64,000 bases of DNA from Salinisphaera sp. T31B1 (GTDB lineage Bacteria; Pseudomonadota; Gammaproteobacteria; Nevskiales; Salinisphaeraceae). The stretch lies in NCBI RefSeq assembly GCF_040361275.1, contig NZ_APNH01000001.1, positions 1,027,001 through 1,091,000 on the forward strand. Direction: 5' to 3'. The notes under the pieces are model-generated. The model saw only the letters and a list, made by a program, of their open reading frames with translations. It made no database searches and had not been told where the DNA came from. Numbering within the stretch: position 1 is the first letter of the stretch; each line of letters starts with the position of its first letter. Shown here in pieces: positions 16,800 to 36,395 of the stretch. Made by a program: the position numbers and the translations under genes.

Positions 16800-16984
16800 G
16801 ATACAGCTCGACTGATCGTGATCCCGCCGGGGGTTGCGCGCCGCGACGGCGGGCTAGCTAGCCATTAAAGCCCGGCAACGTCAACTCGCACGTACGAGCA
16901 TCGCAGCGCCTGTTGTAACGTATGGGCCTGCGACGGCCCAGCGCCCGATACGAACCGGTCCAGTCAGAAGGAAATTGTGCGCTC

Positions 16985-20771: not shown

Positions 20772-23407
20772 GCCAGCGCGTGGCCCGATGGATCGCGGTG
20801 TGGGTGGCGTTCATGATGCGTCATGCCACGACCGTGGTGATTGCGGGCGTTCTCCTGACGGCGGCCTGTGGCTGGTATGCGGCGACGCATCTGTCGATGA
20901 ATACCGACAACGCTGATCTGATCAGCCCGACGGTCGACTGGCGCCAGACTTATATCGCCTACCAGAAGGCATTTCCGGTCTATACCGACAACCTCGTCGT
21001 GGTTGTCGATGGCGCCACGCCGGAGCTGGCCGCGGCGGGTACCCGACGTCTGGCCAAGGCGATGCGTGCCGATCGCGATCATTTCGAATCGGTCTATGTG
21101 CCGGGCGGGGGCGACTTCTTCGCCCGCAACGGGCTGCTGTATCTGGATACGCCCGCGCTGGAGAGGCTGTCCGACCGGCTGGTGCGAATCCAGCCGTTTC
21201 TGGGCCGCTTGTCGGCCGATCCGACGCTGGTCACCTTTTTCGATCTGCTTGACCGTGCCATGGCGCCGGATACGGCGGTGGATTTCGACCTCGCGCCGAT
21301 CTGGCGCGAACTGGACGCGGCCTTCGCCGCCAGCCAGGCCGAACAGTTTCATCGGCTGTCGTGGCAGCGCCTGATGGGCGGTACGCAGACGCCGGGGGTG
21401 TCCTCGCAGCGGTTCATCATCGCTGCGCCGGTCATGAACTACGAACAGCTGCTGCCGGCCGCCGGTGCGATGGCGCGCGTACGTGCGCTGGTCGCTCAGC
21501 TGGATCTGGACGCCGAGCACGGCATGCAGGTGCGCCAGACCGGCGAGGTTGCACTCTCCGACGAGGAGCTGGCCAGCGTATCGCGCGGGGCTGCGTGGGG
21601 AGCGGGTCTGGCATTGGCCGCGGTGGGGCTGATTCTGTACCTCGGTCTTCGCTCCTGGCGGCTGATGGCGGCGGCGCTGGCCAGTCTGATCGCCGGGCTG
21701 GTCGGCACCGCAGCGTTTGCCGCACTCGCTGTGGGCACGCTCAACCTGATCTCGATCGCCTTTGCAGTGCTTTATATCGGTTTGGGCATCGACTACGCCA
21801 TCCATCTGTGTCTGCGCTATCGCGAGGCGCTCGCCGAAGACGGCCATCCGCTTGTCGCGCTGCCACGGGCGGCCAGCGATGTCGGGCTGTCGCTGCTGCT
21901 GTGTGCCATCACCACCGCCGCCGGGTTTTTCGCCTTCATTCCGACGCCGTATTCAGGGGTCGCCGAACTGGGCCTGATCTCAGGCACCGGCATGTTCATC
22001 AGTCTCGTGATCAGCCTGACGCTGCTGCCCGCCCTGGTGGCGATCATGGGCGGGCATCGCGGTGTGCGCCCCCTGGCCGGAGCGGCCATGGCCCGGCGAG
22101 TGCCCGTCATCGGCCCACGCGGCGCCCGGGTGATCTGGGTCGCCGCAGGGCTGACCGCGCTGGCCTGTGCCACGGCGTTGCCGTTTCTGCGTTTCGATAG
22201 CAACACGCTCAACCTCAAGGATCCGAGCAGCGAATCGGTCACGACCTATCGCGAGCTGCTGGCCGACAGCGATCAGTCGCCGCTGACGCTCGTGACCACG
22301 GCCGCCACGCCGTCGGCGGCCGACGATACCGCCCACCGTCTGGATGCGCTGCCCGAGGTTGCGCGAGCGCTGACCGTCAACGATTTCGTACCGGACGATC
22401 AGAAGGCCAAGCTCGCGATCATCGGCGATCTGGCCCTGACACTGGCGCTGGGCCCGCCGGACATGGGCCAGCCGGCCGAACCGGTCGCCCAGCAGCGCGC
22501 GATTGCCGATTTTGCCATTGCACTCGATCAATGGCTGGATCGTGCGCCCGATGACGAAGCCCGCGTGGCGGGCCGCCACCTGGCCGACACGCTCGCCGAT
22601 TGGCAGGTCTGGTTGGGACAACGCCCGGCGGACCAACGGGCCCGTGTGCTCGCCGAGCTGCGGGCCAGCCTCCTGTCCGGGCTCGGTCCGCAGATCGAGA
22701 CGCTGACCGCCTCGCTCGATGCGACAGGCTTTGATCGGGCCGGACTGCCGGCGGCGATACGCAGCCGCTGGATCGGCCAAGACGGCGCTTATCGTGTCGA
22801 AGCCTTCGCCAGCGGCGATCTGAATCAGCCGGCCGTGCTGCGTCAGTTCGTGGCCAGTGCTCAGGCCGTGGTGCCGTCGATTACCGGGGCACCGGTGCTG
22901 GAGGTCGCCGCCGGGCGGACAGTGGCCGACGCCTTCGCCGCAGCGTTCGTATATGCCGCGGTGTTCATTACCGTGCTGCTGGTCGTGTTGCTGCGCAGCC
23001 TGGCCGATACGCTGCGCGTACTTGCCCCGTTGGCGCTGACCGGGCTGATTCTGTGCGCGGTGTCTGTCTGGGCGGACATACCGCTGAATTTCGCCAACGT
23101 CATCGCCTTGCCGCTGCTGCTGGGCGTGGGCGTGGACAGCGGCATCCACGTAGTCCACCGCCTGCGCTCGCACCGACCTGCCGATGGCGCGTTTCTGGCC
23201 AGCAGCACGGCGCGTGCCGTCGTCCTGTCGTCGCTGACCACGCTGGCCGGCTTCGGCAGCCTGGCCTTTTCACACCACGCCGGCACCGCCAGTATGGGAC
23301 AACTGCTGGGCGTCGGTATGGTTGCGATTCTGGTAACCACCCTTATTGTCGTGCCGTCACTCGTTGGTAATGCCAACGGTTCGTCGATCGATCGCCGCGA
23401 TCGCTGA
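20768..23407 (+). CDS. hpnN: Hopanoid RND transporter HpnN
   Basis: 879 residues with the RND/MMPL layout: one N-terminal helix, a periplasmic domain (about 45-275), five to six helices (about 275-430) with 'GLGIDYAIHLCLRYREAL', another single helix, a second periplasmic domain, and a final helix bundle with 'GVGVDSGIHVVHRLR'. The repeated 'GxGxDxxIH' segments are typical of the family. HpnN moves hopanoids from the inner to the outer membrane. It starts inside the hpnG stop. Single chain and domain duplication match HpnN rather than a three-part AcrB pump. Confidence 0.92.
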   Translation: MSQRVARWIAVWVAFMMRHATTVVIAGVLLTAACGWYAATHLSMNTDNADLISPTVDWRQTYIAYQKAFPVYTDNLVVVVDGATPELAAAGTRRLAKAMRADRDHFESVYVPGGGDFFARNGLLYLDTPALERLSDRLVRIQPFLGRLSADPTLVTFFDLLDRAMAPDTAVDFDLAPIWRELDAAFAASQAEQFHRLSWQRLMGGTQTPGVSSQRFIIAAPVMNYEQLLPAAGAMARVRALVAQLDLDAEHGMQVRQTGEVALSDEELASVSRGAAWGAGLALAAVGLILYLGLRSWRLMAAALASLIAGLVGTAAFAALAVGTLNLISIAFAVLYIGLGIDYAIHLCLRYREALAEDGHPLVALPRAASDVGLSLLLCAITTAAGFFAFIPTPYSGVAELGLISGTGMFISLVISLTLLPALVAIMGGHRGVRPLAGAAMARRVPVIGPRGARVIWVAAGLTALACATALPFLRFDSNTLNLKDPSSESVTTYRELLADSDQSPLTLVTTAATPSAADDTAHRLDALPEVARALTVNDFVPDDQKAKLAIIGDLALTLALGPPDMGQPAEPVAQQRAIADFAIALDQWLDRAPDDEARVAGRHLADTLADWQVWLGQRPADQRARVLAELRASLLSGLGPQIETLTASLDATGFDRAGLPAAIRSRWIGQDGAYRVEAFASGDLNQPAVLRQFVASAQAVVPSITGAPVLEVAAGRTVADAFAAAFVYAAVFITVLLVVLLRSLADTLRVLAPLALTGLILCAVSVWADIPLNFANVIALPLLLGVGVDSGIHVVHRLRSHRPADGAFLASSTARAVVLSSLTTLAGFGSLAFSHHAGTASMGQLLGVGMVAILVTTLIVVPSLVGNANGSSIDRRDR

Positions 23408-23471
23408 CCGGACTGGCGTGCCACTGATCGATTGCACACAATGGAAGCACGACTGGGAGAGGGGCGTCGGC

Positions 23472-24116
23472 ATGAATGAATCCTCGTACAACACCCCCGC
23501 AGATCGGCCTGCCGACCCGAGGCCGCTGGATGCGCGGCTGGCGCGTCGACTGGTGCGTCCGCTCGAGGCCACCCGTGCCACGCCCAATCATCTGACCACG
23601 CTGCGCCTGGTTTTGGGGCTGATCGCCGCGGCCTGTCTGGCGCACGGCAGCCTGGCCTGGGCGAACATCGGAGCGTTCGTGTTCGCCCTGTCGAACTTCG
23701 TCGACCATACCGACGGCGAACTGGCGCGCCTGTCCGGCCTGTCGAGCCGCTTCGGCCATTGGTACGATCTGATCAGCGACGTGGTCATTCATACCCTGTT
23801 GTTCGCGGCGCTGGGCTATGGCCTGCGTGATGGCTCACTGGGTCTCTGGGCGCCCTGGCTCGGCTTGCTGGCGGGCGCGGCGGTGGCCTTCATCTTCTGG
23901 CTGCATATGCACATGGAGTCGATACTCGGGAAAGCCGATGCGAGTCTGCCCTCGGCGCGCTATTTCGAGATCGAGGATGTGCTCTATCTGTTCCCGCTGG
24001 TCACGCTGTTCCAGATTCGCCTGCCCTTTTTGATCATGGCAGTGATCGGTGCGCCCATTTTTGCTCTGTGGCTGGGCGCCTACTTCATGCGCCTGCAGCG
24101 TCGATCGGCGGTCTGA
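23472..24116 (+). CDS. CDP-alcohol phosphatidyltransferase
   Basis: 214 residues, about six membrane helices. It carries the complete family signature DxxDGxxARx8GxxxDxxxD at residues 78-103 (starting 'DHTDGELARLSGLSSRFGHW'). These integral membrane enzymes swap the CMP of a CDP-alcohol for another hydroxyl partner (phosphatidylserine, -glycerol, -inositol, ethanolamine- and choline-phosphotransferases). Position is telling: it lies between hpnN and hpnA, in the operon that also makes AEP and two nucleotidyltransferases. I infer it may transfer a CMP-activated phosphonate to a lipid hydroxyl (hopanoid or diacylglycerol); the substrate is not shown by sequence. ATG 23472 has a GAGAGGGG site. 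Confidence 0.88.
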   Translation: MNESSYNTPADRPADPRPLDARLARRLVRPLEATRATPNHLTTLRLVLGLIAAACLAHGSLAWANIGAFVFALSNFVDHTDGELARLSGLSSRFGHWYDLISDVVIHTLLFAALGYGLRDGSLGLWAPWLGLLAGAAVAFIFWLHMHMESILGKADASLPSARYFEIEDVLYLFPLVTLFQIRLPFLIMAVIGAPIFALWLGAYFMRLQRRSAV

Positions 24117-24118
24117 GC

Positions 24119-25126
24119 GTGCGTGCGCTGATCACCGGAGCAACCGGTTTCGTGGGCAGTGCGGTTGCGCGCGCCGCGCTTCGCGATGGCATGACGGTGC
24201 GGGCGCTGGTACGTCCGAACAGCGATACCGCGGCGTTGACGGGCCTGGATATCGAACAGGCCGGCGGCACGCTGGCGGATCGCCCGGCGCTGGCCGCGGC
24301 CATGCGCGGCTGCGATACGGTCTTTCATGTCGCGGCCGACTATCGGCTGTGGGCACGCCGGCCGGACGATCTGTATGCCAACAACGTCGAGGGCACCCGG
24401 CATGTGCTCCAGGCTGCGCGCGAGGCGGGTGTGCCGCGCGTGGTCTATACCAGCAGCGTGGCCACCCTGGGATTGCCCGGTGACGGTACGCCCGGCGACG
24501 AGGACACGCCGGTGGGCCTGGCGGACATGGTCGGCCATTACAAGCGGTCCAAATTTCTGGCCGAGGAGGTCGCCCGCGAGTTCGCGGCCGACGACGCCGG
24601 CCCCGCGGTGGTGATCGTCAACCCCTCGGCGCCGATCGGCCCGCGCGACCACAAACCCACGCCTACCGGGCGCATGGTGCTGGATGCCGCGGCCGGCCGT
24701 ATGCCGGCCTTCGTGGATACCGGGCTGAACGTCGCCCATGTCGATGACGTGGCGCGCGGCCATGTCCAGGCGTTGCATCACGGCCGGTCGGGTCGGCGCT
24801 ACGTGCTGGGCGGCCACGACATGACGCTGGCCGAGATCCTCACGCTCGTCGCCGAACTCACCGATCGCCCGGCGCCGCGGGTGAAGTTGCCGCATGGTCT
24901 TGTGCTGCCGGTTGCGCATGCGGCCGAAGCCGTCGCGCGGTTGACCGGCCGGCCACCGTTCGTGACGGTCGACGGGGTCAAGCTGGCACGCAAGCGGATG
25001 TTTTTCTCGCATGCGCGGGCCAGCCGCGAACTGGGCTACGAGCCGCGCAGCGCGCGGGACGCGCTGGCCGACGCCATTGCCTGGTATTTCGCCCATCGCT
25101 ATCTGCCGGGCGGGCGCCGGCCATGA
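24119..25126 (+). CDS. hpnA: Hopanoid-associated sugar epimerase/dehydrogenase (HpnA)
   Basis: 335 residues, extended short-chain dehydrogenase. NAD(P)-binding 'ITGATGFVGSAVARAA' is at the very N-terminus; 'YTSSVATLG' and the catalytic 'YKRSK' (Y-x3-K) follow, then 'VNPSAPIGPRDHKPTPTG', a phrase typical of HpnA. HpnA is conserved in hopanoid operons and thought to act on the side chain, but its reaction is not settled. A GTG start at 24119 (two bases after the previous stop) places the motif correctly; its stop overlaps the next gene (ATGA). Confidence 0.9.
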   Translation: MRALITGATGFVGSAVARAALRDGMTVRALVRPNSDTAALTGLDIEQAGGTLADRPALAAAMRGCDTVFHVAADYRLWARRPDDLYANNVEGTRHVLQAAREAGVPRVVYTSSVATLGLPGDGTPGDEDTPVGLADMVGHYKRSKFLAEEVAREFAADDAGPAVVIVNPSAPIGPRDHKPTPTGRMVLDAAAGRMPAFVDTGLNVAHVDDVARGHVQALHHGRSGRRYVLGGHDMTLAEILTLVAELTDRPAPRVKLPHGLVLPVAHAAEAVARLTGRPPFVTVDGVKLARKRMFFSHARASRELGYEPRSARDALADAIAWYFAHRYLPGGRRP

Positions 25127-25650
25127 GCCGGGCGCTAATCATGGCCCTGGTTCTGTGGCTGCCGGCGACGACCGCCTGGGCCGACGAGCCCGCTATGCCA
25201 GGCCAGGCCATCAGCGGTTTCTGGCAGACCGAGCAGGGTGAGGCCGTGGTCGAGATCCGTGCCGATCCGGACACGCAGACCTATAGCGGCCGGCTCGTAT
25301 GGCTGCGCCAAGCGCGCTACCTGCAGGACGACCCACGCGGGATCGGCGGTCAGCGGGTGGTCGATCGCCACAACCCTGACCCCGACCGGCGAACACGGCC
25401 GTTGCTGGGTCTGACGCTGCTGACCGGTCTGGCTTATCACCCGCAGGCACGCGACGGCCGCGGGCAATGGCAGTCCGGGCGAATCTACGATACCGAGAAC
25501 GGCAAGCACTACGACTGCTATGTGTGGCTTGCCGACGCGGAGCATCTCAAGCTGCACGGCTATGTGGGGGTACGTCTGCTGGGCCGGACCACCACCTGGA
25601 CACGGGTCGCCGATCCGGCGCGAGTCGAACCCGAAGAGATGGAATCATGA
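25123..25650 (+). CDS. DUF2147-family exported protein
   Basis: 175 residues with a signal peptide (about 1-20, cleaved after AWA). The mature part contains 'ISGFWQTEQGEAVVEI' and 'WQSGRIYDTENGKHYDCYVWL', the usual DUF2147 phrases, ending 'LHGYVGVRLLGRTTTWTRV'. Proteins of this family are small periplasmic beta-rich proteins of unknown role. It overlaps hpnA before it and the catalase-like gene after it (both ATGA), so it belongs to the same transcript. Its place in a hopanoid operon hints at lipid binding or transport, which is only inference. Confidence 0.82.
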   Translation: MSRALIMALVLWLPATTAWADEPAMPGQAISGFWQTEQGEAVVEIRADPDTQTYSGRLVWLRQARYLQDDPRGIGGQRVVDRHNPDPDRRTRPLLGLTLLTGLAYHPQARDGRGQWQSGRIYDTENGKHYDCYVWLADAEHLKLHGYVGVRLLGRTTTWTRVADPARVEPEEMES

Positions 25651-26699
25651 ACGCGTATGTGCGTTTTTCCGAAGATCTCGAGGTCGAACAGCCCGACGAG
25701 GATGCCAAGATCCGCGATATCGTCGAGCTGCTGGCCGCGACCAACCGCGCGACCTTCGAGTCGGTACGCCATGCCAAGCGCGACACCCACGCCAAGGGCC
25801 AGGGTTTCGTCAAGGGCACGCTGACCGTCGTCGACGATCTGCCCCCCGAACTCGCCCAGAGCCTGTTCGCCGGCCCCGGCCGTTACCCCGTGGTCATCCG
25901 ACTGGCGACCGAGCCGGGTGCGATGCTCGACGACCGCCAGCCCGCAGCCCGCGGGCTGGCGATGAAGGTGTTCGGCGTGCCCGGCGACAAGATGGCCGGC
26001 GATGGCCGCACGACCCACGATTTTCTGTTCAACAACTGCCCGATACTGCCGCTGGCCGAGGTGACCACCTACCGCGAGATCCAGGCACTGCGGGCGCACT
26101 ATGTCGACGACCCGGACGGCCTGGCCGATGCGATCGCCGCCCGCGACGACGCCGAGCTGCAGACGCTGTTCGAGCGGCTGCCCAATATTCATCTGCTGGG
26201 CAATGCCTACTACAGCCAGTCGGCGTTTCGCTACGGCGACTACGTGGTCAAGTACGGCCTGTTTCCCAACACCGACGCCCAGCGTGCGCTCGCCGAGCGT
26301 GAGATCGATGCGGACGACCCGCCCGGCGTGCTGACCGAATGGCTGCGCGATTATCTGGCGGCTGCCGAGGCCGGGTTCGACTTCCGGGTGCAGTTGCAGA
26401 CCGATCCACGGACCATGCCGATCGAAGATGCGTCGGTGGACTGGGATCAGCGCGCCAGTCCCTATCGCACCGTGGCCCGGCTGCATATTCCGGCACAGGA
26501 TCCGTTCACGCCCGAGCGGCGTGTCTACAGCGAAGACATACTGTCGTTCGACCCCTGGGCAGGCCGCGCGGATCTGCGCCCGCTGGGTTCGATCAACCGG
26601 GTGCGGGCCAAGGCCTATCGGGCGTCGTCGACTTTCCGCCACCGCATGAACGCGCGCGCCGAGCACGAGCCCGAGCATATCGACGAGATTCCCGACTGA
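25647..26699 (+). CDS. Catalase-related heme protein
   Basis: 350 residues, shorter than true small-subunit catalases (about 480). The distal heme histidine is recognisable in 'RDTHAKGQGFVKGTLTV' (His48), followed by 'ARGLAMKVFGVPGDK' and 'TTHDFLFNNCPILPL' (catalase Asn region), and a C-terminal 'SFDPWAG...RPLGSINRVRAKAYR' typical of the catalase-like subfamily rather than H2O2 catalases. Members of this branch include proteins fused to or acting with lipoxygenases on lipid peroxides, so a lipid-modifying peroxidase role in the hopanoid/phosphonate operon is conceivable. ATG 25647 overlaps the upstream stop; a GAGATGGA site precedes it. Confidence 0.8.
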   Translation: MNAYVRFSEDLEVEQPDEDAKIRDIVELLAATNRATFESVRHAKRDTHAKGQGFVKGTLTVVDDLPPELAQSLFAGPGRYPVVIRLATEPGAMLDDRQPAARGLAMKVFGVPGDKMAGDGRTTHDFLFNNCPILPLAEVTTYREIQALRAHYVDDPDGLADAIAARDDAELQTLFERLPNIHLLGNAYYSQSAFRYGDYVVKYGLFPNTDAQRALAEREIDADDPPGVLTEWLRDYLAAAEAGFDFRVQLQTDPRTMPIEDASVDWDQRASPYRTVARLHIPAQDPFTPERRVYSEDILSFDPWAGRADLRPLGSINRVRAKAYRASSTFRHRMNARAEHEPEHIDEIPD

Positions 26700-26710
26700 A
26701 GGACGCTCCC

Positions 26711-27481
26711 ATGACGACAGCCACCCTCAATGATCGGCCGGCGGATCCGTCGGCGTCGCCGGCGACCGGCTTTCTGGCCGATCTCGACACGGACGGCCTT
26801 GCTCAGCGGTTCGCCGGTGACGACGAGTTCCTGTTCATCGACCGGTTCCTTCCGCCCGAGACCAGCGAGCAGTTTGCCGCGCGCATCGCCTCACTCGAGT
26901 CGACCGTGCACCGGAATTTCATTCCCAAGCACAAGAAGGGCGGCAGCGTCAGCCGGTACACGCTCGACGAACTGGCTCCGGAAATACCGGCGCTGTATCG
27001 GAACCCGGAATTCATCGCCTGGCTGGAGCGGCTCACCGGCGAGTCGCTGCAGGTCTGCCCGGATTCCGATCCACATGCCTATGCGCTGTATTTCTATACC
27101 GAAGCCGGCGACCATATCGGCTGGCATTTCGATACGTCCTACTACGCCGGCAAACGTTATACGCTGCTGCTGGGTGTGGTCGACGACTCGTCCAGCCAGC
27201 TCGAGTTCGAGCTGTTCAAGCACGACGACACCCGCGAAACGCTGCGCGATGCGCGCAATCTACGCCCCGGGGCGATGTGTTTCTTCAACGGCGACAAGGT
27301 CTGGCACCGGATCACCCCGCTGGGTGACGGTGAGACTCGCATCTCGCTGACCTTCGAATACGTGACCGATCCGCATATGGGGCGATGGCAGCGGTTCGTG
27401 TCGAACATGAAGGATTCCATCGCCTATTTCGGATTCCGTCAGGTCTTCTCGCGCGCGCTGGGTCGCAAGAGCGCACGTTGA
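26711..27481 (+). CDS. 2-oxoglutarate/Fe(II)-dependent oxygenase
   Basis: 256 residues of the double-stranded beta-helix fold. The iron facial triad is visible: 'GWHFDTS' (His139, Asp141) and 'VWHRI' (His199), with the 2-oxoglutarate Arg210 in 'ETRISLTFEYV'. Such enzymes hydroxylate, halogenate or desaturate; this one begins 11 bases after the catalase-like gene and its stop overlaps hpnL. Within the operon, substrates could be the hopanoid side chain or the phosphonate (2-OG oxygenases hydroxylate AEP in PhnY). The sequence does not decide. Confidence 0.85.
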   Translation: MTTATLNDRPADPSASPATGFLADLDTDGLAQRFAGDDEFLFIDRFLPPETSEQFAARIASLESTVHRNFIPKHKKGGSVSRYTLDELAPEIPALYRNPEFIAWLERLTGESLQVCPDSDPHAYALYFYTEAGDHIGWHFDTSYYAGKRYTLLLGVVDDSSSQLEFELFKHDDTRETLRDARNLRPGAMCFFNGDKVWHRITPLGDGETRISLTFEYVTDPHMGRWQRFVSNMKDSIAYFGFRQVFSRALGRKSAR

Positions 27482-28473
27482 AGCGAACCGCGCTCATCAT
27501 GGCGCTGGTCGGCATCGCGCTGTTCACGGCGGTGCTGGTCTGGCGCGGCGCGGCCGATATGGCCTCGGCGTTGGCGGCGGCCGGCTGGGGGCTGGTGGTG
27601 GTGGCCGCCTGGCATGTGCTGCCGCTGATCATCGACAGCCATGCCTGGCGGATCCTGTTCGAGCGCCCGCGTCCCGGCCCTTGGCGTATCGTCTGGGCGC
27701 GCTGGATTGGCGAGTCGATCAACGGCCTGTTGCCGGTCGCCCAGGTCGGCGGCGATGTCGCCAAGGCGCGCCTGCTGGTATTGCGGGGGTGGCCCGGCGC
27801 ACCGGTCGGCGCGACCGTTGTGGTCGACACCACGTTGGCGGTGGCCACCCAGATGGTGTTCGCGTTGATGGGCGTGGCCATGCTGCTGGCCTTGCTCGAC
27901 CGGCCTGAACTGGCTTGGGCGCTGGTGGCGGGCATCGCGGTCATGGCCACGTTGGTCGGGCTGTTCTACCGTCTGCAACGCGGCGGGCTGTTCGGTGGTC
28001 TGGCTGGTTTGCTGCACAAGCTGACGGGCGGCACGCAGGCGCTGGATTTCATCGGCAGCGGCCGCGAACTGGATCGGGCGATCGGCGCGATCTATGCCCA
28101 GCCCATGCTGACCTTGAGGGCGGCCGCCTGGCGTCTGTTCGGCTGGCTGGCGGGTGTCGGCGAGGTATGGCTCGCCCTGTATTTCCTCGGCGCGCCGGTC
28201 AGTCTGGCCGATGCGCTCATGCTGGAGGCCCTCGGCCAGGCGGTCCGCGGCGCGGCGTTCGCGATTCCGGGCGCGCTGGGTGTTCAGGAAGGCGGCTACG
28301 TGCTGCTTGGCTCGCTCATCGGCCTGTCGCCGGATACCGCGCTGGCGCTGTCACTGTCCAAGCGGGTACGCGAGCTCGCCTTCGGCATTCCCGGCCTGGT
28401 GGCCTGGCAGCTTGCCGAAGGCCGCGCCTTGCAGCGCCCGCGCCGTACCAAACATTCCGTTCAGGAGCATTGA
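27478..28473 (+). CDS. hpnL: HpnL-like membrane protein
   Basis: 331 residues, seven to eight helices, of the lysylphosphatidylglycerol synthetase/flippase-like (UPF0104) family. Typical phrases are 'WIGESINGLLPVAQVGGDVAKARLL' split over two loops and 'AAFAIPGALGVQEGGYVLLG'. HpnL-type proteins occur in hopanoid operons with hpnN and are thought to help lipid flipping. A TTG start at 27478 overlaps the previous TGA (TTGA); the next in-frame ATG is at 27499. Its stop is followed directly by the ATG of the nucleotidyltransferase. Confidence 0.85.
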   Translation: MKRTALIMALVGIALFTAVLVWRGAADMASALAAAGWGLVVVAAWHVLPLIIDSHAWRILFERPRPGPWRIVWARWIGESINGLLPVAQVGGDVAKARLLVLRGWPGAPVGATVVVDTTLAVATQMVFALMGVAMLLALLDRPELAWALVAGIAVMATLVGLFYRLQRGGLFGGLAGLLHKLTGGTQALDFIGSGRELDRAIGAIYAQPMLTLRAAAWRLFGWLAGVGEVWLALYFLGAPVSLADALMLEALGQAVRGAAFAIPGALGVQEGGYVLLGSLIGLSPDTALALSLSKRVRELAFGIPGLVAWQLAEGRALQRPRRTKHSVQEH

Positions 28474-29235
28474 ATGCACGCACTTCTACTGGCCGCCGGC
28501 GTCGGCCGACGTTTGACCGAGATCACCGGCGGTGGCCCCAAGTGCCTGTTGCCGTTCGACGGGGCCAGTCTGCTGGAACGTCACCTGCGGCTGCTGGCCG
28601 ACGCCGGCATACACCGATTGACCGTGGTCACCGGCTGTGAAGCCATGCAGATCGAGCAGGCGCTGGGCGCACTCGTGCCGCGGGTGGCGCCCGAGATGAC
28701 CGTCGATACCATCGTCAATCCGGATTTCCGGCTCGGCAGCGCGCTGAGTGTGGTCGCCGGCCGGGCGGTGCTCGAAGCCGAAGACGACGCACTGCTGATG
28801 GACGCCGATGTTCTCTACGACGCACGCATGCTTAAGCCCTTGACCGCCGCGGCCGGCGCCGATCTGCTGCTCATGGATCGCGACGTGGATCCCAACGACG
28901 ACGAGCCGGTCAAGATCGCGCTCCGTGATCAGGCGGTGGTCGGCTTCGACAAGCAGCTGCCCGCCGGTCTGGCCTACGACACCCTGGGCGAATCCGTCGG
29001 CTTCTTCCGGCTGTCGCCTGCCCGTGCCCGGGCGTTGGTCGCGAACTGTGAACGCCTGGCCGCACAGGACGCCGAGACGCCGCACGAACATGCGCTGCGC
29101 GATCTGCTGGCCGCCGAGCCGGACGTATTCGAGGTGGCCGATGTCACCGGCGTGCCGTGGATCGAGATCGACTATCCGGAGGATGTCGACCGCGCGGTCG
29201 ACATCATCGCGCCTCGGCTCGAGGCGCTGGCATGA
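28474..29235 (+). CDS. Nucleotidyltransferase, likely CMP/alcohol-phosphate type
   Basis: 253 residues. The nucleotide-binding signature '[24 protein letters not shown]' (residues 5-28, G-x-G-x-R-L and PKxLLP) is classic; '[10 protein letters not shown]' carries the metal aspartates and '[13 protein letters not shown]' is near the C-terminus, as in inositol-1-phosphate and phosphocholine cytidylyltransferases. It begins on the base after the hpnL stop and overlaps the PEP mutase gene (ATGA). Next to AEP genes it could make CMP-AEP, while the NTase domain fused to PEP mutase may do the same or another activation. Confidence 0.87.
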
Positions 29236-30866
29236 GTACGACCTCCGATGCACCCAGTCGTGCACGCCGGCTACGTGATCTGCTGGCCTCCGACGAGCTC
29301 GAATTCATCATGGAGGCGCACAACGGTCTGTCGGCCCGCATCGTCGAGGAGGCCGGATTCGCCGGCGTCTGGGCATCGGGGCTGGCGTTGTCGGCCGCTT
29401 TCGGCGTTCGGGATTCGAACGAAGCCAGCTGGACACAGGTGCTCGAGGCCGTCGAGTTCATGGCCGATGCTACATCGCTGCCGATCCTGCTCGACGGCGA
29501 CACCGGCTATGGCAACTTCAACAATCTGCGCCGGCTGGTAACCAAGCTCGAGTCGCGCGGCGTGGCCGGCGTCTGTATCGAGGACAAGCTGTTTCCCAAG
29601 ACCAACAGCTTCATCGACGGTGAGCGCCAGGCGCTGGCGGACGTGGATGAATTCTGTGGCAAGATCCGCGCCGGCAAGGATGCCCAGCGCGACCCGGATT
29701 TCTGTATCGTCGCGCGGGTCGAGGCACTGATCGCCGGCTGGTCTGTGGACGAAGCCCTCGAGCGGGCGCTGGCCTATCATGCCGCCGGGGCCGACGCGAT
29801 CCTCATTCACGACAAGGCGCCCCGGTTCGACAATATCCAGGCGTTCGCCGAGCGCTGGGACGACCGCTGTCCGCTGGTGATCGTGCCGACCAAGTACTAC
29901 TCCACGCCGACCGACGTCTTCCGTGCGGCCGGTATCAGCCTGGCGATCTGGGCCAACCATACGGTGCGCTCGGCGGTCACCGCCATGCAGCGCACCGCCC
30001 GCGAAGTGTTCGAGCAGCAGAGCGTGGCCGGCCTTGAGGACCGCATCGCACCCGTCGCCGAAATCTTTCGCCTGCAGGGCGACGACGAACTACGCGCCGC
30101 CGAACGCCGCTATACCGGATCCGACGCGCCGATCCACGCCGTCATGCTCGCCGCCACACGCGGCGAGGGACTGGAGCCGGTCACCGAGACGCGGCCCAAG
30201 GCCATGCTGGAGATCGGTGGCAAGCCGCTGCTGCGACGGCTGGTCGATGTATTCAAGGCACAGGGCGTTCACGAACTCACCGTGGTTGCCGGATACCGGG
30301 CCGATACGATCGACGTGCCCGGCGTACGCGTGGTCGAGAACACGGATTTCGAGCAGACCGGCGAACTGGCGTCGCTGGGTCTGGCGAGCGAACATTTCGG
30401 CAGCGACAACATCGTGCTCTACGGGGACCTGATCTTCCGCCGTCACGTGCTGGTCGATCTGCTCGATGCCGACGGCGATATCGTGGTGGTCGTGGATTCC
30501 GATTCAGCCGGCCCCGGCGAAACGCTGCGCGACCCGGCCTGGTGCAGTGCGCCCGATGATCGGTCGCTGTTCGCCCAGCGCGTCACCCTCGAGCACGTGG
30601 GTCGGAACGGCGCGCCCGAGACGGCCTGCTGCGGCCGCTGGATCGGCCTGATGCGCGCCCGCGGCGCCGGCCGGACGCATATTGCCCAAGCGATCGAAAC
30701 ACTGCGACAGCGGGGCGACTACGAGCAGGCCGGCATTCCGGATCTGCTGAATGTGCTGATTGGCGCCGGTGTGCCGGTCCATGTGGTGTATATCACCGGC
30801 CATTGGCTTGATGTGAACGACCTCGACGATCTGCGCGCGGCCAGCGATTTCGCCCATGGTGGCTAG
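29232..30866 (+). CDS. PEP mutase fused to nucleotidyltransferase
   Basis: 544 residues. Residues 10-295 are phosphoenolpyruvate phosphomutase with the diagnostic EDKx5NS motif ([10 protein letters not shown], 117-126) and '[10 protein letters not shown]'. Residues 302-544 are a sugar-nucleotidyltransferase-like domain opening '[25 protein letters not shown]' in two blocks. PEP mutase forms the C-P bond of phosphonopyruvate, the entry to phosphonates; fused NTases of PntC type activate phosphonates as CMP derivatives for lipid or glycan attachment. The NTase signature departs from G-x-G-x-R-L (ATRGEGLEP), so whether this domain is fully active needs testing. The gene overlaps the preceding one; a 111-base gap follows. 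Confidence 0.9.
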
Positions 30867-30977
30867 CGTGTGCCACCGGCCGGACGTCGGGCCCACGCCG
30901 GCGACCTGGGCCGTCTGCATGTTGCACAACCAGGGCGTCCCGCGCGAGGATTTCGTGAATGCCAACAGGACCTTGCC

Positions 30978-32138
30978 ATGATTCAGGCAAATGATTTCAT
31001 CGACCGGGCGGCCGCCCGCGGCTACGATTTCTATGCCGGTGTGCCGTGTTCGCTGCTCACACCGTTCATCAATACGGTGATCGACGACGCCCGTCTGACT
31101 TATATCTCGGCGGCCAATGAGGGTGACGCGGTAGCCGCCGCCGCCGGGCGCGCGCTGGCCGGCCGGCCGGCCGTGGCGATGATGCAGAACTCCGGGCTGG
31201 GCAACGCCGTCTCGCCGCTGACCTCGTTGAACTGGGTCTTTCGGCTGCCGATTCTGCTGATCGTGACCTGGCGCGGCGAACCCGAGATCGGCGACGAACC
31301 CCAGCACGAACTCATGGGCCGGATCACGCCGGAGCTGCTAGAGGCGATGGAGATCGACTGGGAAGTGTTCCCGGACAACGCCCAGGCCATCGACGACGTG
31401 CTGGCACGCGCCGATCGCCACATGCAGGCCACCGGCCGTCCGTATGCGCTGGTCATGCGTAAGAATACGGTCGCCCCGGCGCCGCTTGTCGACCGCAGTT
31501 CGCCGAGCCAGAGCCGGGGGGCGATCACGTTTCGCCCGGCGCCAGCACGGTCCCGTCGGCTGCCGGGTGTGAGCCGGCGCCAGGCGCTCGAGCGGCTGGT
31601 GGAGTCCACCGACGTCGGACACGACGTGCTCATCGCCTCGACCGGCTATGCCGGACGCGAGCTGTACGCGGTGGCCGATCGACCCAACCATCTGTACATG
31701 GTCGGCTCGATGGGCTGTGCGCCGCTGCTGGGGCTCGGTCTGGCACTGGCCAGACCAGACCTGCGCGTGATCGTGATCGACGGCGACGGCGCAGCACTTA
31801 TGCGGCTGGGCGGCATGGCCACGCTGGCCGCCTATGGGCCGACCAATCTCGCTCATCTGCTGCTCGACAACGGCATGCATGAGTCCACCGGCGGCCAGGC
31901 CACGGTCGCGGCGGGGCTATCGTTTGCCTCGATCGCCGCCGCCTGTGGGTATCGAACGACCTACGAAGGCCATGACCTGAGCCTGATCGACGATCTGCTG
32001 GCCGGTAGTTCGCAGGGCCCGGCATTTTCGCATCTGCATATCGAGCCGGGCATCGACGCCGCTTCGCTGCCGCGTCCGGCGCATGGCCCGACCGAGGTGC
32101 GCACACGGTTCATGGCCCACATCGGAGCCGCCGAATGA
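30978..32138 (+). CDS. aepY: Phosphonopyruvate decarboxylase
   Basis: 386 residues, thiamine-diphosphate enzyme. The N-terminal PYR domain has Glu48 in 'AANEGDAVAAAAG'; the C-terminal PP domain has 'IDGDGAALMRLGGMATLA' (about 268-285) and 'LLDNGMHESTGGQ' (GDG...DN motif). It decarboxylates phosphonopyruvate to phosphonoacetaldehyde, pulling the unfavourable PEP mutase reaction forward. ATG 30978 has a CAGGA site; the frame reaches 30870 upstream but without similarity. Its stop overlaps the transaminase ATG. Confidence 0.94.
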   Translation: MIQANDFIDRAAARGYDFYAGVPCSLLTPFINTVIDDARLTYISAANEGDAVAAAAGRALAGRPAVAMMQNSGLGNAVSPLTSLNWVFRLPILLIVTWRGEPEIGDEPQHELMGRITPELLEAMEIDWEVFPDNAQAIDDVLARADRHMQATGRPYALVMRKNTVAPAPLVDRSSPSQSRGAITFRPAPARSRRLPGVSRRQALERLVESTDVGHDVLIASTGYAGRELYAVADRPNHLYMVGSMGCAPLLGLGLALARPDLRVIVIDGDGAALMRLGGMATLAAYGPTNLAHLLLDNGMHESTGGQATVAAGLSFASIAAACGYRTTYEGHDLSLIDDLLAGSSQGPAFSHLHIEPGIDAASLPRPAHGPTEVRTRFMAHIGAAE

Positions 32139-33214
32139 GCGCATCGGCGATGCGGTTGCTCAACCCAGGCCCGGTTACCCTCACCGACACGGTGCGCGGC
32201 GCGCTGGCGAGCGAGGACCTGTGTCATCGCGAACCCGAATTTGCGGATCTGCAACAGACCGTGCGTTCCGGTCTGCGTGCGGTCTACGGTCTGAGCGACG
32301 AGTGGGCGCCGGTCCTGGTGTCGGGGTCGGGCACGGCCGCCGTGGAGGCCATGGTCAGCTCGTTGCCCGGCGCCGATGCCCGGCTGCTGATCGTGGAAAA
32401 CGGCGTCTACGGCGAGCGCATGGCCCGAATGGCCGAGGTGCATGGGATTGCCCACGAGCGCATGACGCTGGCCTGGGGCCAGGCGATCGATACCGCGGCC
32501 GTGGCCGAGTGGCTGCAGGCGGGGGCTTTCAGCCATCTCGCCGTGGTCCATCATGAGACCACCACGGGGCGGCTCAACGATCTAGAGGCCCTGGGTCGAG
32601 CGTGCACCGCGCGCGGCGTGGCCATGCTGGTCGACGCGGTGAGCAGTTTCGGCGCCGAGGCGATCGACTTCGACGCCCTGCCGATCGCGGCCGTGGCGGC
32701 CACGGCGAACAAATGTCTGCACGGAGCGCCCGGCCTGGCTTTCGTGATCGCCCGGCGAACCGCGCTGGCCCATGGGCAGCCGCGGACGCTGTATCTGGAT
32801 CTGGCCGAGTACTGTGCCAAGCAGGATGCGCGCAGCACGCCGTTCACGCCCGCCATTCCGGCGTTTTACGCCCTGGCTGCCGCACTCGACGAACATGCCG
32901 CCGAGGGTGGCTGGTTTGCTCGTCGCAACCGGTATCGCCGCCTTGCCGCTCAGGTGGCTGACGGCCTTGCGGCACTCGGGATCACGGCCGTACTCGATGC
33001 CGACCAGTCCTCGTGTGTGTTGCGCGCCTATCGATTACCGGCGGCGCTGGACTATGCCACCTTGCACGACCATCTCAAGCAAACGGGCTTCGTCATCTAT
33101 GCCGGGCAAGGCGGCCTGGCCGATTCCATCTTCCGGATTTCGACCATGGGCGCGCTCGACGAAGCCGATATCCAACGACTGATCGCAAGCGTGGCTTGTC
33201 TCGTGCACAATTGA
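32135..33214 (+). CDS. phnW: 2-aminoethylphosphonate:pyruvate transaminase
   Basis: 359 residues, fold-type I PLP enzyme. 'LLNPGPVTLTDTVRGALA', 'LVSGSGTAAVEAM', the PLP aspartate in 'VDAVSSFG' (D167) and the Schiff-base lysine in 'ATANKCLHGAPG' (K193) match PhnW. PhnW is best known in AEP breakdown, but run in reverse after phosphonopyruvate decarboxylase it makes AEP. Since PEP mutase and decarboxylase are coupled to it and no phosphonatase (PhnX) is here, the biosynthetic direction is inferred. It is the last gene before the hpnH promoter region. Confidence 0.92.
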   Translation: MSASAMRLLNPGPVTLTDTVRGALASEDLCHREPEFADLQQTVRSGLRAVYGLSDEWAPVLVSGSGTAAVEAMVSSLPGADARLLIVENGVYGERMARMAEVHGIAHERMTLAWGQAIDTAAVAEWLQAGAFSHLAVVHHETTTGRLNDLEALGRACTARGVAMLVDAVSSFGAEAIDFDALPIAAVAATANKCLHGAPGLAFVIARRTALAHGQPRTLYLDLAEYCAKQDARSTPFTPAIPAFYALAAALDEHAAEGGWFARRNRYRRLAAQVADGLAALGITAVLDADQSSCVLRAYRLPAALDYATLHDHLKQTGFVIYAGQGGLADSIFRISTMGALDEADIQRLIASVACLVHN

Positions 33215-33248
33215 TTGCCTGTTTGCAGCAAGTTCGTCGAACAGGCTG

Positions 33249-33254
33249 TATAAT
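33249..33254 (+). promoter_or_regulatory. Putative -10 element for hpnH-hpnB-hpnM
   Basis: A perfect TATAAT lies 96 bases before the hpnH start. The best -35 candidate (TTGCAG, about 20 bases upstream) is poor. Just upstream is a 6-bp inverted repeat (33218-33223 with 33240-33245) ending three bases before the -10, which could be an operator or the end of the upstream transcript. Confidence 0.4.
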
Positions 33255-33262
33255 GAAGCTAT

Positions 33263-33326: not shown

Positions 33327-33349
33327 CGGTTAGATCCAAGAGGTTTCCT

Positions 33350-34492
33350 ATGGCCGTCCCGCTGATTCAACAGTACCGCGTGGCTCGTTACATCATGGGT
33401 AAGAAGCTTGCGCGGCAGGAAAAGTATCCACTGGTGCTGATGCTTGAGCCGCTGTTTCAGTGCAACCTGGCCTGTGCCGGTTGCGGCAAGATCGATCAGC
33501 CCAAGGATGTGCTCAAACAGCGCATGTCCGTCGACGATGCGCTGGCTGCGGTCGACGAGTGCGGCGCGCCGATGGTCTCGATCCCCGGCGGTGAGCCGTT
33601 GATCCACAAGGAGATGCCGCAGATCATCCAGGGCATCGTGGCGCGCAAGAAGTTCGTCTATCTGTGCACCAACGCCCTGTTGATGAAAAAGAAGATGGAC
33701 CAGTACGAGCCCTCGCCGTATTTCACCTGGTCGGTGCACCTGGACGGGCTCAAGGAACGCCACGACGAATCCGTCTGCCAGGAAGGCGTGTTCGAGAAAG
33801 CGGTCGAGGCCATTGAAATGGCGCGCGACCGCGGTTTCCGTGTGACCATCAATTGCACGCTCTTCGATGGCGAAGTGCCCGAGGAAGTCGCCGATTTCTT
33901 CGACTACGTGACCGACCTGGGCGTGGAAGGCATTACGGTATCGCCGGGCTATTCTTACGAGCATGCTCCGCGTCAGGACGTATTCCTGGGTCGCAGCACG
34001 TCCAAGAACCTGTTCCGGAACATCTTCCGGGCCGGGCGCGAACGCGGCAGCGACTGGAAGCTCAACCATTCGTCATTGTTCCTGGATTTTCTGGCCGGTA
34101 ATGAGACCTACCAGTGCACGCCCTGGTCGAATGTAACCTACAACGTGTTCGGCTGGCAGAAACCCTGCTACCTGCTCGTCGACGAGGGTTACGAAAAGAC
34201 TTTCAAGGGCCTGATGGAGAACACCGAGTGGGACAAGTACGGTGTGGGCCGCAATCCCAAGTGCGACAACTGCATGGCCCATTGCGGCTATGAAGGTACG
34301 GCGGTCGAGGACACCTTCGCGCACCCGCTCAAGGCGTTGAAGGTTATGCTGAAGGGCCCGCGCCTGAGCGGCGACTTCGCCGAGGAGTTGCCGATCGTCT
34401 ACGGTGACCGCGCCGAGGCCACGGCCACGCGTATTCCGATCTCGGCGATCGGGCGCCGCGAGACCGGCGCCGCGCGAGACAGCGCGCGCTAG
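33350..34492 (+). CDS. hpnH: Adenosyl-hopene transferase HpnH (radical SAM)
   Basis: 380 residues. The radical SAM cluster motif CNLACAGC (C38, C42, C45; CxxxCxxC) is near the N-terminus, with 'VSIPGGEPLIH' (GGE motif) and the C-terminal cysteines 'PKCDNCMAHCGYEG'. HpnH joins the 5'-deoxyadenosyl group to hopene, giving adenosylhopane, the root of all C35 hopanoids; HpnG acts next. It has its own leader and likely promoter rather than being coupled to phnW, and ends at a strong intrinsic terminator. Confidence 0.95.
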   Translation: MAVPLIQQYRVARYIMGKKLARQEKYPLVLMLEPLFQCNLACAGCGKIDQPKDVLKQRMSVDDALAAVDECGAPMVSIPGGEPLIHKEMPQIIQGIVARKKFVYLCTNALLMKKKMDQYEPSPYFTWSVHLDGLKERHDESVCQEGVFEKAVEAIEMARDRGFRVTINCTLFDGEVPEEVADFFDYVTDLGVEGITVSPGYSYEHAPRQDVFLGRSTSKNLFRNIFRAGRERGSDWKLNHSSLFLDFLAGNETYQCTPWSNVTYNVFGWQKPCYLLVDEGYEKTFKGLMENTEWDKYGVGRNPKCDNCMAHCGYEGTAVEDTFAHPLKALKVMLKGPRLSGDFAEELPIVYGDRAEATATRIPISAIGRRETGAARDSAR

Positions 34493-34555: not shown

Positions 34556-35686
34556 ATGCTGCCGATCGCTGCCGTCATCGCTACCCTGATATGGTTCGGC
34601 CTGCTGTGCCTGCCCTGGCAGCCGTGGCGAATGCGCGAACGTTTCGAGGCCGCGGCAGGAGCGAGCCGGGCATGGGCGGATCTGTCGGATATCACCGTTC
34701 TGATTCCGGCCCGAGACGAGGCTCAAACGCTGCCGCGTACCCTCGCGGCACTGCAGGCGCAGGGCCAGGGGCTGCAGGTCGTCGTCATCGACGATCATTC
34801 GAGCGACGACACAGCCGAGGTAGCACGCCACGCCGGCCTGGCAAATTTGCAGGTCATTCCCGCCGACCCGCTGCCGGATGGCTGGACAGGCAAGCTGTGG
34901 GCGTTGGAACAGGGCCTTGCCCGCGCGAGCCGGGCACGCGTGGTGCTGCTCGATGCCGATATTGAGCTGGCCGCCGGCACGCTGGCCGGACTGCGTGAGC
35001 GCGCGATAGCGGACGATCGGCAACTGGTCTCGCTGATGGCCGCGTTGCGTATGGACAGCCTGGCCGAGCGTCTGCTCATGCCGGCGTTCATCTATTTCTT
35101 CAAGCTGCTGTACCCGTTTGCCCTGTCCAATGCCGGTTCGCGCTGGGTCGCCGCCGCCGCGGGCGGGTGCGTTCTTATTGATCGCGCCATGCTGGAGCGA
35201 ATCGGTGGTTTCGCCAGTCTCCGCGATGCGGTCATCGACGATTGCACGCTGGCGGCGCGGGTGCGTGCAGCCGGCGGGCGGACGTGGGTCGGGGTGACTC
35301 ATGCCGCGATCAGCCTGCGCGGTTACGACGACCTGGCCTCGATCCATGCCATGGTGGCCCGCTCGGCCTTCACCCAGCTGCGCTACTCGGTGGTCCTGCT
35401 CCTGCTCTGTACGCTGGTGATGGGCCTCATGTTCTGGGCGCCGCCGGTCGCGCTTCTGGCAGGCGATGACGCTACCCGCGCAATCGCTGCCCTGGCCGTC
35501 GCAGCGATGATCGCAAGCTATCTACCCACGCTGATCTATTATCGCCAGCGATGGATCTGGTCGCTGCTGATGCCGGTGACGGCCACGCTCTACCTGCTGA
35601 TGACCTGGTCGTCGGCGGTGCGCTACTGGCGTGGCCTGCGTACCGCATGGCGGGGCCGCGACTATCATCGCGAGTCGTCGGACTGA
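34556..35686 (+). CDS. hpnB: Hopanoid glycosyltransferase HpnB
   Basis: 376 residues. One N-terminal helix, then a GT-A (GT2) domain with 'ITVLIPARDEAQTLPRTLAAL', 'VVVIDDHSSDDTA', 'VVLLDADIEL' (DxD-like) and 'DAVIDDCTLAARVRAAGG', and three C-terminal helices. The pattern matches HpnB of hopanoid operons. It is proposed to add or modify a sugar on the bacteriohopane side chain. It follows the hpnH terminator closely and precedes hpnM. Confidence 0.9.
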   Translation: MLPIAAVIATLIWFGLLCLPWQPWRMRERFEAAAGASRAWADLSDITVLIPARDEAQTLPRTLAALQAQGQGLQVVVIDDHSSDDTAEVARHAGLANLQVIPADPLPDGWTGKLWALEQGLARASRARVVLLDADIELAAGTLAGLRERAIADDRQLVSLMAALRMDSLAERLLMPAFIYFFKLLYPFALSNAGSRWVAAAAGGCVLIDRAMLERIGGFASLRDAVIDDCTLAARVRAAGGRTWVGVTHAAISLRGYDDLASIHAMVARSAFTQLRYSVVLLLLCTLVMGLMFWAPPVALLAGDDATRAIAALAVAAMIASYLPTLIYYRQRWIWSLLMPVTATLYLLMTWSSAVRYWRGLRTAWRGRDYHRESSD

Positions 35687-35753
35687 ACGTTGCGAACGGC
35701 CGCTGCGGGACGCGGTCGAACCTGAGAATCGCTGCTTGAAACGAGGAATGCCC

Positions 35754-36395
35754 ATGCCCCAGCTTCGTGAGACCATCCGTCAGACGTTGGTCTGCGTGGT
35801 CGCCACCCTGGCTATCGTCGGCTGTATCGGTATCTGGTCGGCGGCCGCGGCCGAGCCGGCGCGCGCGGTGGTCGAGCGTCTGGACGGCCATTTGCTCACA
35901 ACCATGAAACAGGCTGACGCGCTCGGCTTTGCCGGCCGTTACAAGAAACTGCGTCCGGTCATCGACGACAGTTTCGATTTGCCGCGTATCGCCCGGTTGG
36001 CGTTGGGCAGCGAATGGTCCGCGCTGGATGCAACACAGCAGGCGGCCTATGTGGCCAAGTTTCGCCAGGATACGATCGCGACCTATGCCAGCCGCTTCGA
36101 CGGATATGACGGCCAGCGCTTCGAAGTTGTCGATGCGCGTGACGTGGCCGGTGGCCGGCGCCAGGTCGACACCGCCATCGTATCGGCGGATGGCAAGCGT
36201 ACGCCGATCAACTACGTGCTCGCCCGCACCGACGGCGAGTGGCGCATCGTCAATGTCGTGGCCGGTGGCGTCAGCGATCTAGCGCTCAAGCGTGGCCAGT
36301 ATACGACCGCCATCCGCAACCAGGGCGCTGACGGATTTCTGCAGCAGTTCGACCGGCAGCTGGCCAAGTATCCGGCGCTGCCGGCCGACGACTGA
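35754..36395 (+). CDS. hpnM: MlaC-like HpnM, periplasmic lipid-binding protein
   Basis: 213 residues. The N-terminus is a long hydrophobic signal (about residues 8-34, cleaved after SAAAA), then the MlaC/Ttg2D fold with 'RYKKLRPVIDDSFDLPRIARLALG' in two parts and 'VVAGGVSDLALKRGQYTTAI'. MlaC shuttles phospholipids across the periplasm; the HpnM branch is found in hopanoid clusters and is thought to carry hopanoids with HpnN. ATG 35754 is chosen because ACGAGGA lies 6 bases before it; an ATG at 35748 would sit directly on that site. Confidence 0.9.
   Translation: MPQLRETIRQTLVCVVATLAIVGCIGIWSAAAAEPARAVVERLDGHLLTTMKQADALGFAGRYKKLRPVIDDSFDLPRIARLALGSEWSALDATQQAAYVAKFRQDTIATYASRFDGYDGQRFEVVDARDVAGGRRQVDTAIVSADGKRTPINYVLARTDGEWRIVNVVAGGVSDLALKRGQYTTAIRNQGADGFLQQFDRQLAKYPALPADD

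Follow-up and report, generated by a model that had tools for sequence, protein, structure and literature searches.

A hopanoid gene block of Salinisphaera sp. T31B1 carries, interleaved with its hopanoid genes, a pathway to 2-aminoethylphosphonate (AEP) and a membrane CDP-alcohol phosphotransferase (CAPT), and this combination recurs in distant taxa. The operon probably makes a hopanoid with an AEP or hydroxy-AEP head group. The block lies at positions 16922-36395 on the plus strand of a 64,000-nucleotide stretch (contig NZ_APNH01000001.1, positions 1,027,001 to 1,091,000; hereafter the window) from a genome of 4.36 Mb in 9 contigs. Family scans of its open reading frames (ORFs), with a pairwise comparison for hpnG, identify it as a single co-directional run in the order fused squalene synthase-squalene-hopene cyclase (SHC), hpnG, hpnN, CAPT, hpnA, DUF2147, ORF25647, 2-oxoglutarate (2OG)-Fe oxygenase, hpnL, a stand-alone second nucleotidyltransferase (NTase2), phosphoenolpyruvate (PEP) mutase fused to a nucleotidyltransferase domain (pepM), phosphonopyruvate decarboxylase (ppd), AEP aminotransferase (aepT), hpnH, hpnB and hpnM.

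The AEP pathway and its transferase lie within the hopanoid genes

The three AEP enzymes are encoded by adjacent genes and each exceeds the curated cut-off of its family: the PEP mutase (29232..30866; TIGR02320 386 bits, cut-off 319.55), Ppd (30978..32138, start inferred, in an ORF running from a GTG at 30870; TIGR03297 429 bits, cut-off 312.5) and AepT (32135..33214; TIGR03301 393 bits, cut-off 361). The mutase contains EDKxxxxxNS, the defining PEP mutase motif (PMC6697681). At least 97% of 83 rows keep its residues E117, D118, K119, N125 and S126, and a PDB sequence search gave the PEP mutase 1m1b as the closest solved structure. As PEP mutase and Ppd are biosynthetic enzymes, a role in AEP catabolism was rejected.

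Two nucleotidyltransferases could activate AEP. The closest PDB sequence to NTase2 (28474..29235) is PntC of T. denticola (6pd1; residues 3-249 of 253, E 2e-7). Compared with the signature GxG(T/S)RX4-8PK, NTase2 reads GVGRR-x8-PK, with Gly, Arg and Lys kept and an Arg at the T/S position; Arg15 of T. denticola PntC is a required signature residue (PMC6697681). The domain fused to the PEP mutase (30130-30860) has the variant signature LAATRGEGL...RPK, with a Gly at the position of Arg15. Across the family this position is taken by Gly, Glu, Lys or other residues, and 44 of 48 rows have an Arg ahead of the middle Gly. Because the fused domain lacks the Arg15 of PntC, while NTase2 keeps the signature Gly, Arg and Lys and matches PntC, we prefer NTase2 as the predicted AEP cytidylyltransferase.

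The CAPT (23472..24116; PF01066 51.6 bits, cut-off 22), our proposed CMP-AEP:hopanoid transferase, had been credited with a full signature by the initial annotation, and D-x2-D-G-x2-A-R-x8-G-x3-D-x3-D is indeed complete in the alignment. Its AlphaFold (AF2) model has the membrane fold of the family (mean pLDDT 88.8), with AF2299 and IPCT-DIPPS as the best PDB folds. Four further CAPTs are encoded elsewhere in the genome. In a CAPT tree, from which one paralogue of locus L016 without the full signature was left out, the window CAPT groups with those of the related loci L007 and L008 (99/99), within the CAPTs of AEP cassettes and outside the four others; the fork setting apart all 61 cassette rows has values of 93/91, with long outgroup branches. 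Given this placement and the four other CAPTs, a housekeeping phospholipid synthase was rejected as its identity.

Between ORF25647 and hpnL lies the 2OG-Fe oxygenase (26711..27481; HalD/BesD-like, PF23169 49 bits, cut-off 26). It has the HxD...H triad and Arg, and at least 97% of 51 rows keep H139-x-D141, H199 and R210; the triad Asp is missing from related halogenases. In five Pandoraea loci CAPT and the 2OG enzyme are fused as one protein. In some Nostocales and several genomes of a further class described below, a PhyH-type enzyme is found in or near the same gene group; it resembles methylphosphonate hydroxylase, below the cut-off of that model.

The hopanoid scaffold genes are those of a bacteriohopanepolyol cluster, with SHC, HpnH, HpnG and HpnN all present, HpnG by pairwise comparison only. 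SHC forms residues 401-1018 of the fusion at 16922..20017 (TIGR01507 799 bits, cut-off 431), and residues 41-349 correspond to squalene synthase (TIGR01559 113 bits, below the cut-off of 287). HpnG, the hopanoid-associated phosphorylase (20058..20771), is 32% identical over 195 residues to HpnG of locus L148 (E 1e-18), which itself matches TIGR03468 at 1.5e-51, yet below the cut-off of that model; tblastn with the window gene gave matches in 19 of 26 loci searched. The RND-like transporter HpnN (20768..23407, start inferred) reaches 935 bits on TIGR03480 (cut-off 752) and 685 on the stricter NF052374, under its cut-off of 1100. The adenosyl-hopene transferase HpnH (33350..34492; TIGR03470 547 bits, cut-off 225), HpnA (24119..25126, GTG start; TIGR03466 478 bits, cut-off 368), HpnL (27478..28473, TTG start; an LPG_synthase_TM-type membrane protein, TIGR03476 340 bits, cut-off 196, and PF03706), HpnB (34556..35686; TIGR03469 382 bits, cut-off 379) and the MlaC-like HpnM (35631..36395, true start probably downstream of 35631; TIGR03481 205 bits, cut-off 160) complete the set. 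Squalene synthase and SHC share one ORF of 1031 aa, and the SHC frames of the L007 and L008 genomes are likewise about 1020-1050 aa long; Burkholderia, too, has long open frames around SHC, and such frames do not prove fusion.

Start and stop codons overlap at six junctions, as ATGA at hpnG/hpnN, hpnA/DUF2147, DUF2147/ORF25647, NTase2/pepM and ppd/aepT and as TTGA at 2OG/hpnL. The distance is 0 bp between hpnL and NTase2 and 2 bp between CAPT and hpnA, and gaps of 64, 111 and 135 bp follow hpnN, pepM and aepT, respectively. The translational coupling proposed in the initial annotation thus applies to part of the block. The PEP mutase-nucleotidyltransferase, Ppd, AEP transaminase and second nucleotidyltransferase listed there are all present, as are hpnG, hpnN, hpnA and hpnL, with hpnG lying upstream of the range it had covered. 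DUF2147, ORF25647 and the 2OG-Fe oxygenase had been passed over.

Recurrence of the linkage in other lineages

A contig scan of genomes retained the best 80 loci of 475 relatives, and 82 loci (L005-L086) were compared. After ORFs below 60% of the reference length had been dropped, 61 of 62 CAPT, 50 of 53 2OG, 43 of 44 hpnL and 74 of 80 ppd rows were kept. Among the best 80 loci, the closest PEP mutases, with 77% identity, belong to a Salinisphaera and to a metagenome-assembled genome labelled Lysobacterales. A DNA search with the window sequence brought up Burkholderia and Cupriavidus. The order CAPT-2OG-hpnL-NTase2-pepM-ppd-aepT of Burkholderia is that of the window without hpnA, DUF2147 and ORF25647, and it is kept in Burkholderia, Cupriavidus, a Ralstonia, Pandoraea, Pararobbsia and one Paraburkholderia. 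In many cyanobacteria CAPT, an oxygenase, NTase2, pepM, ppd and aepT occur together.

A hopanoid gene (>100 bits) was present in the fetched stretch of 18 of the 82 loci, many stretches ending at contig ends. These loci are gammaproteobacterial (3), from Pandoraea or Pararobbsia (6) and cyanobacterial (9, three of them by an HpnI match alone). A midpoint-rooted FastTree phylogeny of 48 PEP mutase rows, considered for its topology alone, places hopanoid-linked rows in each of its two main halves. L007 and L008 have almost the same arrangement as the window and L016 a rearranged version of it. After the cassette, the Pandoraea locus L030 has dxs, HpnN, a gene resembling HpnM (62 bits, cut-off 160) and HpnH, and SHC lies just beyond the stretch on what is presumed to be the same contig. 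Two Nostocales have the order HpnI, B12 radical SAM gene, CAPT, PhyH, NTase2, pepM, ppd, aepT, together with hpnH and hpnA. In genome G653 the set is split, with CAPT-2OG-hpnL-NTase2 on one contig and pepM-ppd-aepT on another. Since this split leaves hpnL with the transfer genes, HpnL belongs with the transfer module in these proteobacteria.

A further class was sampled around genome G676; the size of this group and its position in the phylum, outside the class of the window, suggest Alphaproteobacteria. In G676, hpnN-CAPT-hpnL stand beside a PhnW-type AEP transaminase (above cut-off), and PEP mutase, Ppd, NTase2 and PhyH are on a different contig. This PEP mutase occurs in 29 of the 289 genomes of the class sample; all further counts refer to 28 genomes, G676 as the centre being left out. 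Stretches around PEP mutase, CAPT or SHC were fetched for all 28. In 19 of them SHC, hpnH, hpnA or hpnN lies in the same stretch, 20 kb long at most, as an AEP or CAPT gene, a count that is not blind, as the stretches were partly picked because search rows put the genes on one contig; in 14 of 28 the PEP mutase itself shares such a stretch. A deliberately generous chance model for the linkage gives about 1.5 of 28, and the highest value among 200,000 draws was 9. One 20-kb stretch of genome G1043 contains a squalene synthase-like gene, HpnE, SHC, HpnG (just below cut-off), HpnH and IspH as well as CAPT, HpnL, HpnA, a second CAPT, NTase2, HpnN, HpnM, PEP mutase-NTase and Ppd. In genome G945 (L151) a single open frame of 1104 aa encodes both a CAPT and HpnN.

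Co-occurrence with squalene-hopene cyclase

SHC is frequent in the Burkholderiaceae in any case, with 212 of 299 genomes positive, and the counted genomes are not independent. Bare SHC co-occurrence would be weak there as sole proof, and we therefore used phylum-wide samples, the class sample and synteny. At a CAPT profile threshold of E <= 1e-35, CAPT was found in 7 of 398 genomes of the phylum of the window, where SHC exceeds its cut-off in 47, and in 3 of 194 Cyanobacteria, where it does so in 55; SHC is present in all seven and all three CAPT-positive genomes. These ten include two centres, chosen for having CAPT. Without the centres, the hypergeometric p is 0.08 for the Cyanobacteria and 1.8e-6 for the sample of 398, the latter being too small owing to kinship, as four of the six genomes come from one family. 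The same six genomes all encode the fused PEP mutase, with at least 649.9 bits, even where, as in G676, it is sited elsewhere.

Counted from the PEP mutase, SHC was found in 48 of 49 genomes, in a check that covered the genomes of 50 of the 80 loci with L040 left out; L050 alone is SHC-negative, and its stretch lacks CAPT. In the class of G676, SHC exceeds the cut-off in 28 of 28 PEP mutase genomes and CAPT is found in 26 of 28 at E <= 1e-15, a looser threshold that may include other kinds of CAPT. Loci lacking CAPT were considered as a control and set aside: the CAPT module of G653 sits on another contig, so that local absence of CAPT does not mean absence from the genome, and the other CAPT-less loci are SHC-positive.

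Proposed product

In the proposed pathway, PEP would be converted to phosphonopyruvate, phosphonoacetaldehyde and AEP by PEP mutase, Ppd and AepT, and AEP to CMP-AEP by NTase2, perhaps with the domain fused to the PEP mutase. The membrane CAPT would then move the phosphonate from CMP-AEP onto a hydroxyl of bacteriohopanepolyol, a step modelled on the CDP-ethanolamine phosphotransferases that act on diacylglycerol. The acceptor would be a side-chain-extended hopanoid produced by SHC, HpnH and HpnG. The Fe/2OG oxygenase may hydroxylate the head group or the lipid, and HpnN, HpnM and, where present, HpnL would carry the product toward the outer membrane. The data show the gene identities, motifs, gene order, fusions and recurrence in distant taxa; from these we infer all substrates, the hopanoid hydroxyl (not diacylglycerol) as acceptor, the site of hydroxylation and the transport role of HpnL. 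The initial annotation had already suggested an AEP-headed hopanoid or, as a second option, an AEP-headed diacylglycerol lipid. Its link between the two gene sets gains from the recurrence in gamma- and betaproteobacteria, cyanobacteria and the presumed Alphaproteobacteria, from the presence of SHC in all ten CAPT-positive genomes of the phylum samples and from the CAPT-HpnN frame; the hopanoid hydroxyl as acceptor is still a proposal.

Hopanoids are the bacterial counterparts of sterols and are read from rocks as molecular fossils. The head groups known for them are of amino, sugar or cyclitol type, and none with a C-P bond is known to us. If the proposal is correct, such a head group would represent a new class of lipid and an additional sink for reduced phosphorus. 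On balance, though with slightly less assurance than for the operon itself, we favour phosphonohopanoids as a class of membrane lipids: zwitterionic, phospholipase-resistant sterol analogues with AEP or 1-hydroxy-AEP as the side-chain head, which a dedicated CAPT would produce and which would be distributed across the presumed Alphaproteobacteria, the Burkholderiaceae, Salinisphaera-like gammaproteobacteria and the Nostocales. Their existence would account for the AEP genes, the CDP-alcohol transferase and often HpnL keeping together, and in the proteobacterial versions of the system would also give hpnL a job. The proposal predicts exact masses that can be searched in existing lipidomics files, with a calculated [M+H]+ of 654.4857 for bacteriohopanetetrol-AEP (C37H68NO6P) and 670.4806 for its hydroxy form, compared with 702.5432 for AEP-diacylglycerol 34:1.

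The initial annotation had also argued that the absence of HpnO, HpnI, HpnJ and HpnK leaves room for an AEP head group. None of the four was found among the 38 window proteins scanned with family models, and HpnB reaches 29.5 bits on the HpnI model, far under its cut-off of 310. As two Nostocales have HpnI in the same gene group as CAPT, the argument for a free head-group slot is weak and was dropped.

Alternative explanations and opposing observations

The chief alternative is an ordinary phosphonolipid, in which CAPT would put AEP from CMP-AEP on diacylglycerol and the hopanoid genes would be adjacent because of joint regulation and export to the outer membrane. We regard it as possible but rather unlikely. 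It explains the chemistry equally well, as the reaction would be identical to ethanolamine phosphotransfer, and it is how this cassette has been interpreted in print for Nostoc and Burkholderia (PMC5987646). The cassette is unlinked to hopanoid genes in the Burkholderia and Cupriavidus stretches, and MlaA-like lipid transport genes are found in some clusters. What a co-managed diacylglycerol lipid does not explain is the company of SHC, which it would not need and which is nevertheless present in 10/10 and 28/28 genomes of the phylum and class samples. Moreover, CAPT adjoins hpnN, hpnA or hpnL in unrelated layouts and once shares an ORF with HpnN.

It is improbable that NTase2 and CAPT serve another CDP-alcohol, for example inositol phosphate as in a split IPCT-DIPPS, with the AEP of the neighbouring enzymes used elsewhere. 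The fold of CAPT is near DIPPS and AF2299, and both proteins match the IPCT-DIPPS family, although with 57 (NTase2) and 42 bits (CAPT) far below the cut-off of 580. The closest solved relative of NTase2 is PntC, and CAPT and this PEP mutase go together in the six phylum-sample and 26 of 28 class genomes mentioned above, counts that cover CAPT and PEP mutase only.

Slightly less probable still is the placement of AEP on a surface glycan (lipopolysaccharide or exopolysaccharide). Most pepM clusters are predicted to make cell-surface phosphonoglycans or lipids (PMC6697681), and HpnB and, in Nostocales, HpnI are glycosyltransferases. The usual partner here is a membrane CAPT with a lipid-synthase fold, and no LicD-type transferase was found among the 15 operon proteins scanned. 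That the AEP cassette landed in the hopanoid operon by coincidence is hardly credible: its site varies in Burkholderiaceae and it can be split, but such an accident is already contradicted by recurrence in several lineages with differing orders, by interleaving, by overlapping starts and by a fusion.

Several observations weigh against an AEP-headed hopanoid. Besides the published reading, the unlinked cassettes of Burkholderia and Cupriavidus and the high SHC background of the Burkholderiaceae, no hpnL match was found in the cyanobacterial stretches, and the stretch lacks CAPT in 22 of the 82 loci, of which L037 and L043 have hpnH and hpnA alongside. In the class of G676, SHC was counted in the PEP mutase genomes only, and under the thresholds applied 9 of the 28 are without linkage, in some cases on contigs just a few kb long or where a contig ends. 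In G934, G1058 and G1147 an hpnL-like gene is the one hopanoid gene next to CAPT and the AEP genes, and in G1045, which gave no CAPT match, the AEP locus is separate from a full hopanoid cluster. The CAPT-HpnN frame comes from one genome and may stem from a sequence error or from the loss of a stop codon. The hopanoids of Nostoc and Burkholderia have already been studied. The open literature, searched mostly by title and start of the abstract and with subscription journals largely outside it, gave no report of an AEP-hopanoid lipid, so that novelty is unproven. A 2025 survey saw no obvious new candidate genes near alphaproteobacterial hpn clusters (PMC12583986).

Relation to known systems

The AEP/CAPT set as such is already published, and the new part is the hopanoid link. 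In 2018 the set was drawn, in a Fig. 7 legend and after Yu et al. 2013, as a phosphonolipid cluster of Nostoc and Burkholderia (PMC5987646). Like the window, that cluster comprises a CDP-alcohol phosphatidyltransferase, an OG-Fe(II) oxidase, an NTP transferase, pepM, ppd, AEPT and hpnL; unlike here, it was interpreted as phosphonate lipid synthesis of a lichen Nostoc, and 'hopan' does not occur in its text. In 2021, terpenoid genes near the mutase in Acetobacteraceae were taken to suggest an undiscovered 'terpene-phosphonate' (PMC8776678). This suggestion shares with our reading the linkage of PEP mutase to terpenoid genes, but it is a single sentence, and the accessible text gives no head group or mechanism and lacks 'phosphatidyl'. 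The initial annotation had spoken of an undescribed system; in view of these two papers that term is too broad.

The PntC phosphonyl-tailoring pathways of T. denticola and A. rimae likewise make AEP and activate it as CMP-AEP, in neighbourhoods with LicD-like or glycosyltransferases instead of a CAPT in a hopanoid operon (PMC6697681). With the bacteriohopanepolyol head-group pathways (HpnG, HpnH, HpnI/J/K, HpnO) the window shares the scaffold genes hpnH and hpnG and the transporter hpnN. AF2299 and IPCT-DIPPS resemble the window CAPT in fold, signature and the logic of a nucleotidyltransferase plus a CAPT; they differ in the proposed donor and acceptor and are 16-21% identical to it. Of the hopanoid genes considered here, hpnA, hpnB and hpnL are described as without established function (PMC12583986).

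Further genes in and around the clusters

Several clusters contain additional lipid-related genes. Two CAPT genes per cluster are found in L146, L147, L148, L149, L152, L178, L016 and L032, and L159 has three matches. MlaA-like lipoprotein genes lie in or near clusters at L146:11866-12699, L150:8437-9240, L113:12257-13258 and L016:20200-20937, suggesting, with the MlaC-like HpnM, a hopanoid counterpart of the Mla system. Upstream of the Nostocales CAPT is a radical SAM gene (L013:6651-8288, L032:1965-3617, L023:3635-5302) that is PhpK-like at 76-78 bits, well short of the cut-off (600), and has B12-binding and DUF4070 domains in L013; its product might methylate the phosphonate or the hopanoid. 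In genome G622, a 7.4-kb contig (L100, G622:C125) combines a CAPT homologue with genes for a phage head-tail connector and capsid assembly; the homologue is either a phage gene or a binning artefact. As the CAPT contigs of G622 are short and one carries phage head-tail genes, this genome was kept in the counts and given no weight.

Two genes of the window block have a narrow distribution. ORF25647 (25647..26699, 350 aa) has no match in the Pfam and NCBIfam scans and, among L005-L086, a homologue in L007 only; the DUF2147 protein (25123..25650; PF09917) has homologues there in L007 and L008 only. Adjoining the hopanoid operon, mevalonate-pathway genes occupy 36436-41934 on the minus strand and encode a phosphomevalonate kinase-like protein (below the model cut-off), Idi, a diphosphomevalonate decarboxylase and a fused HMG-CoA reductase-mevalonate kinase of 987 aa.

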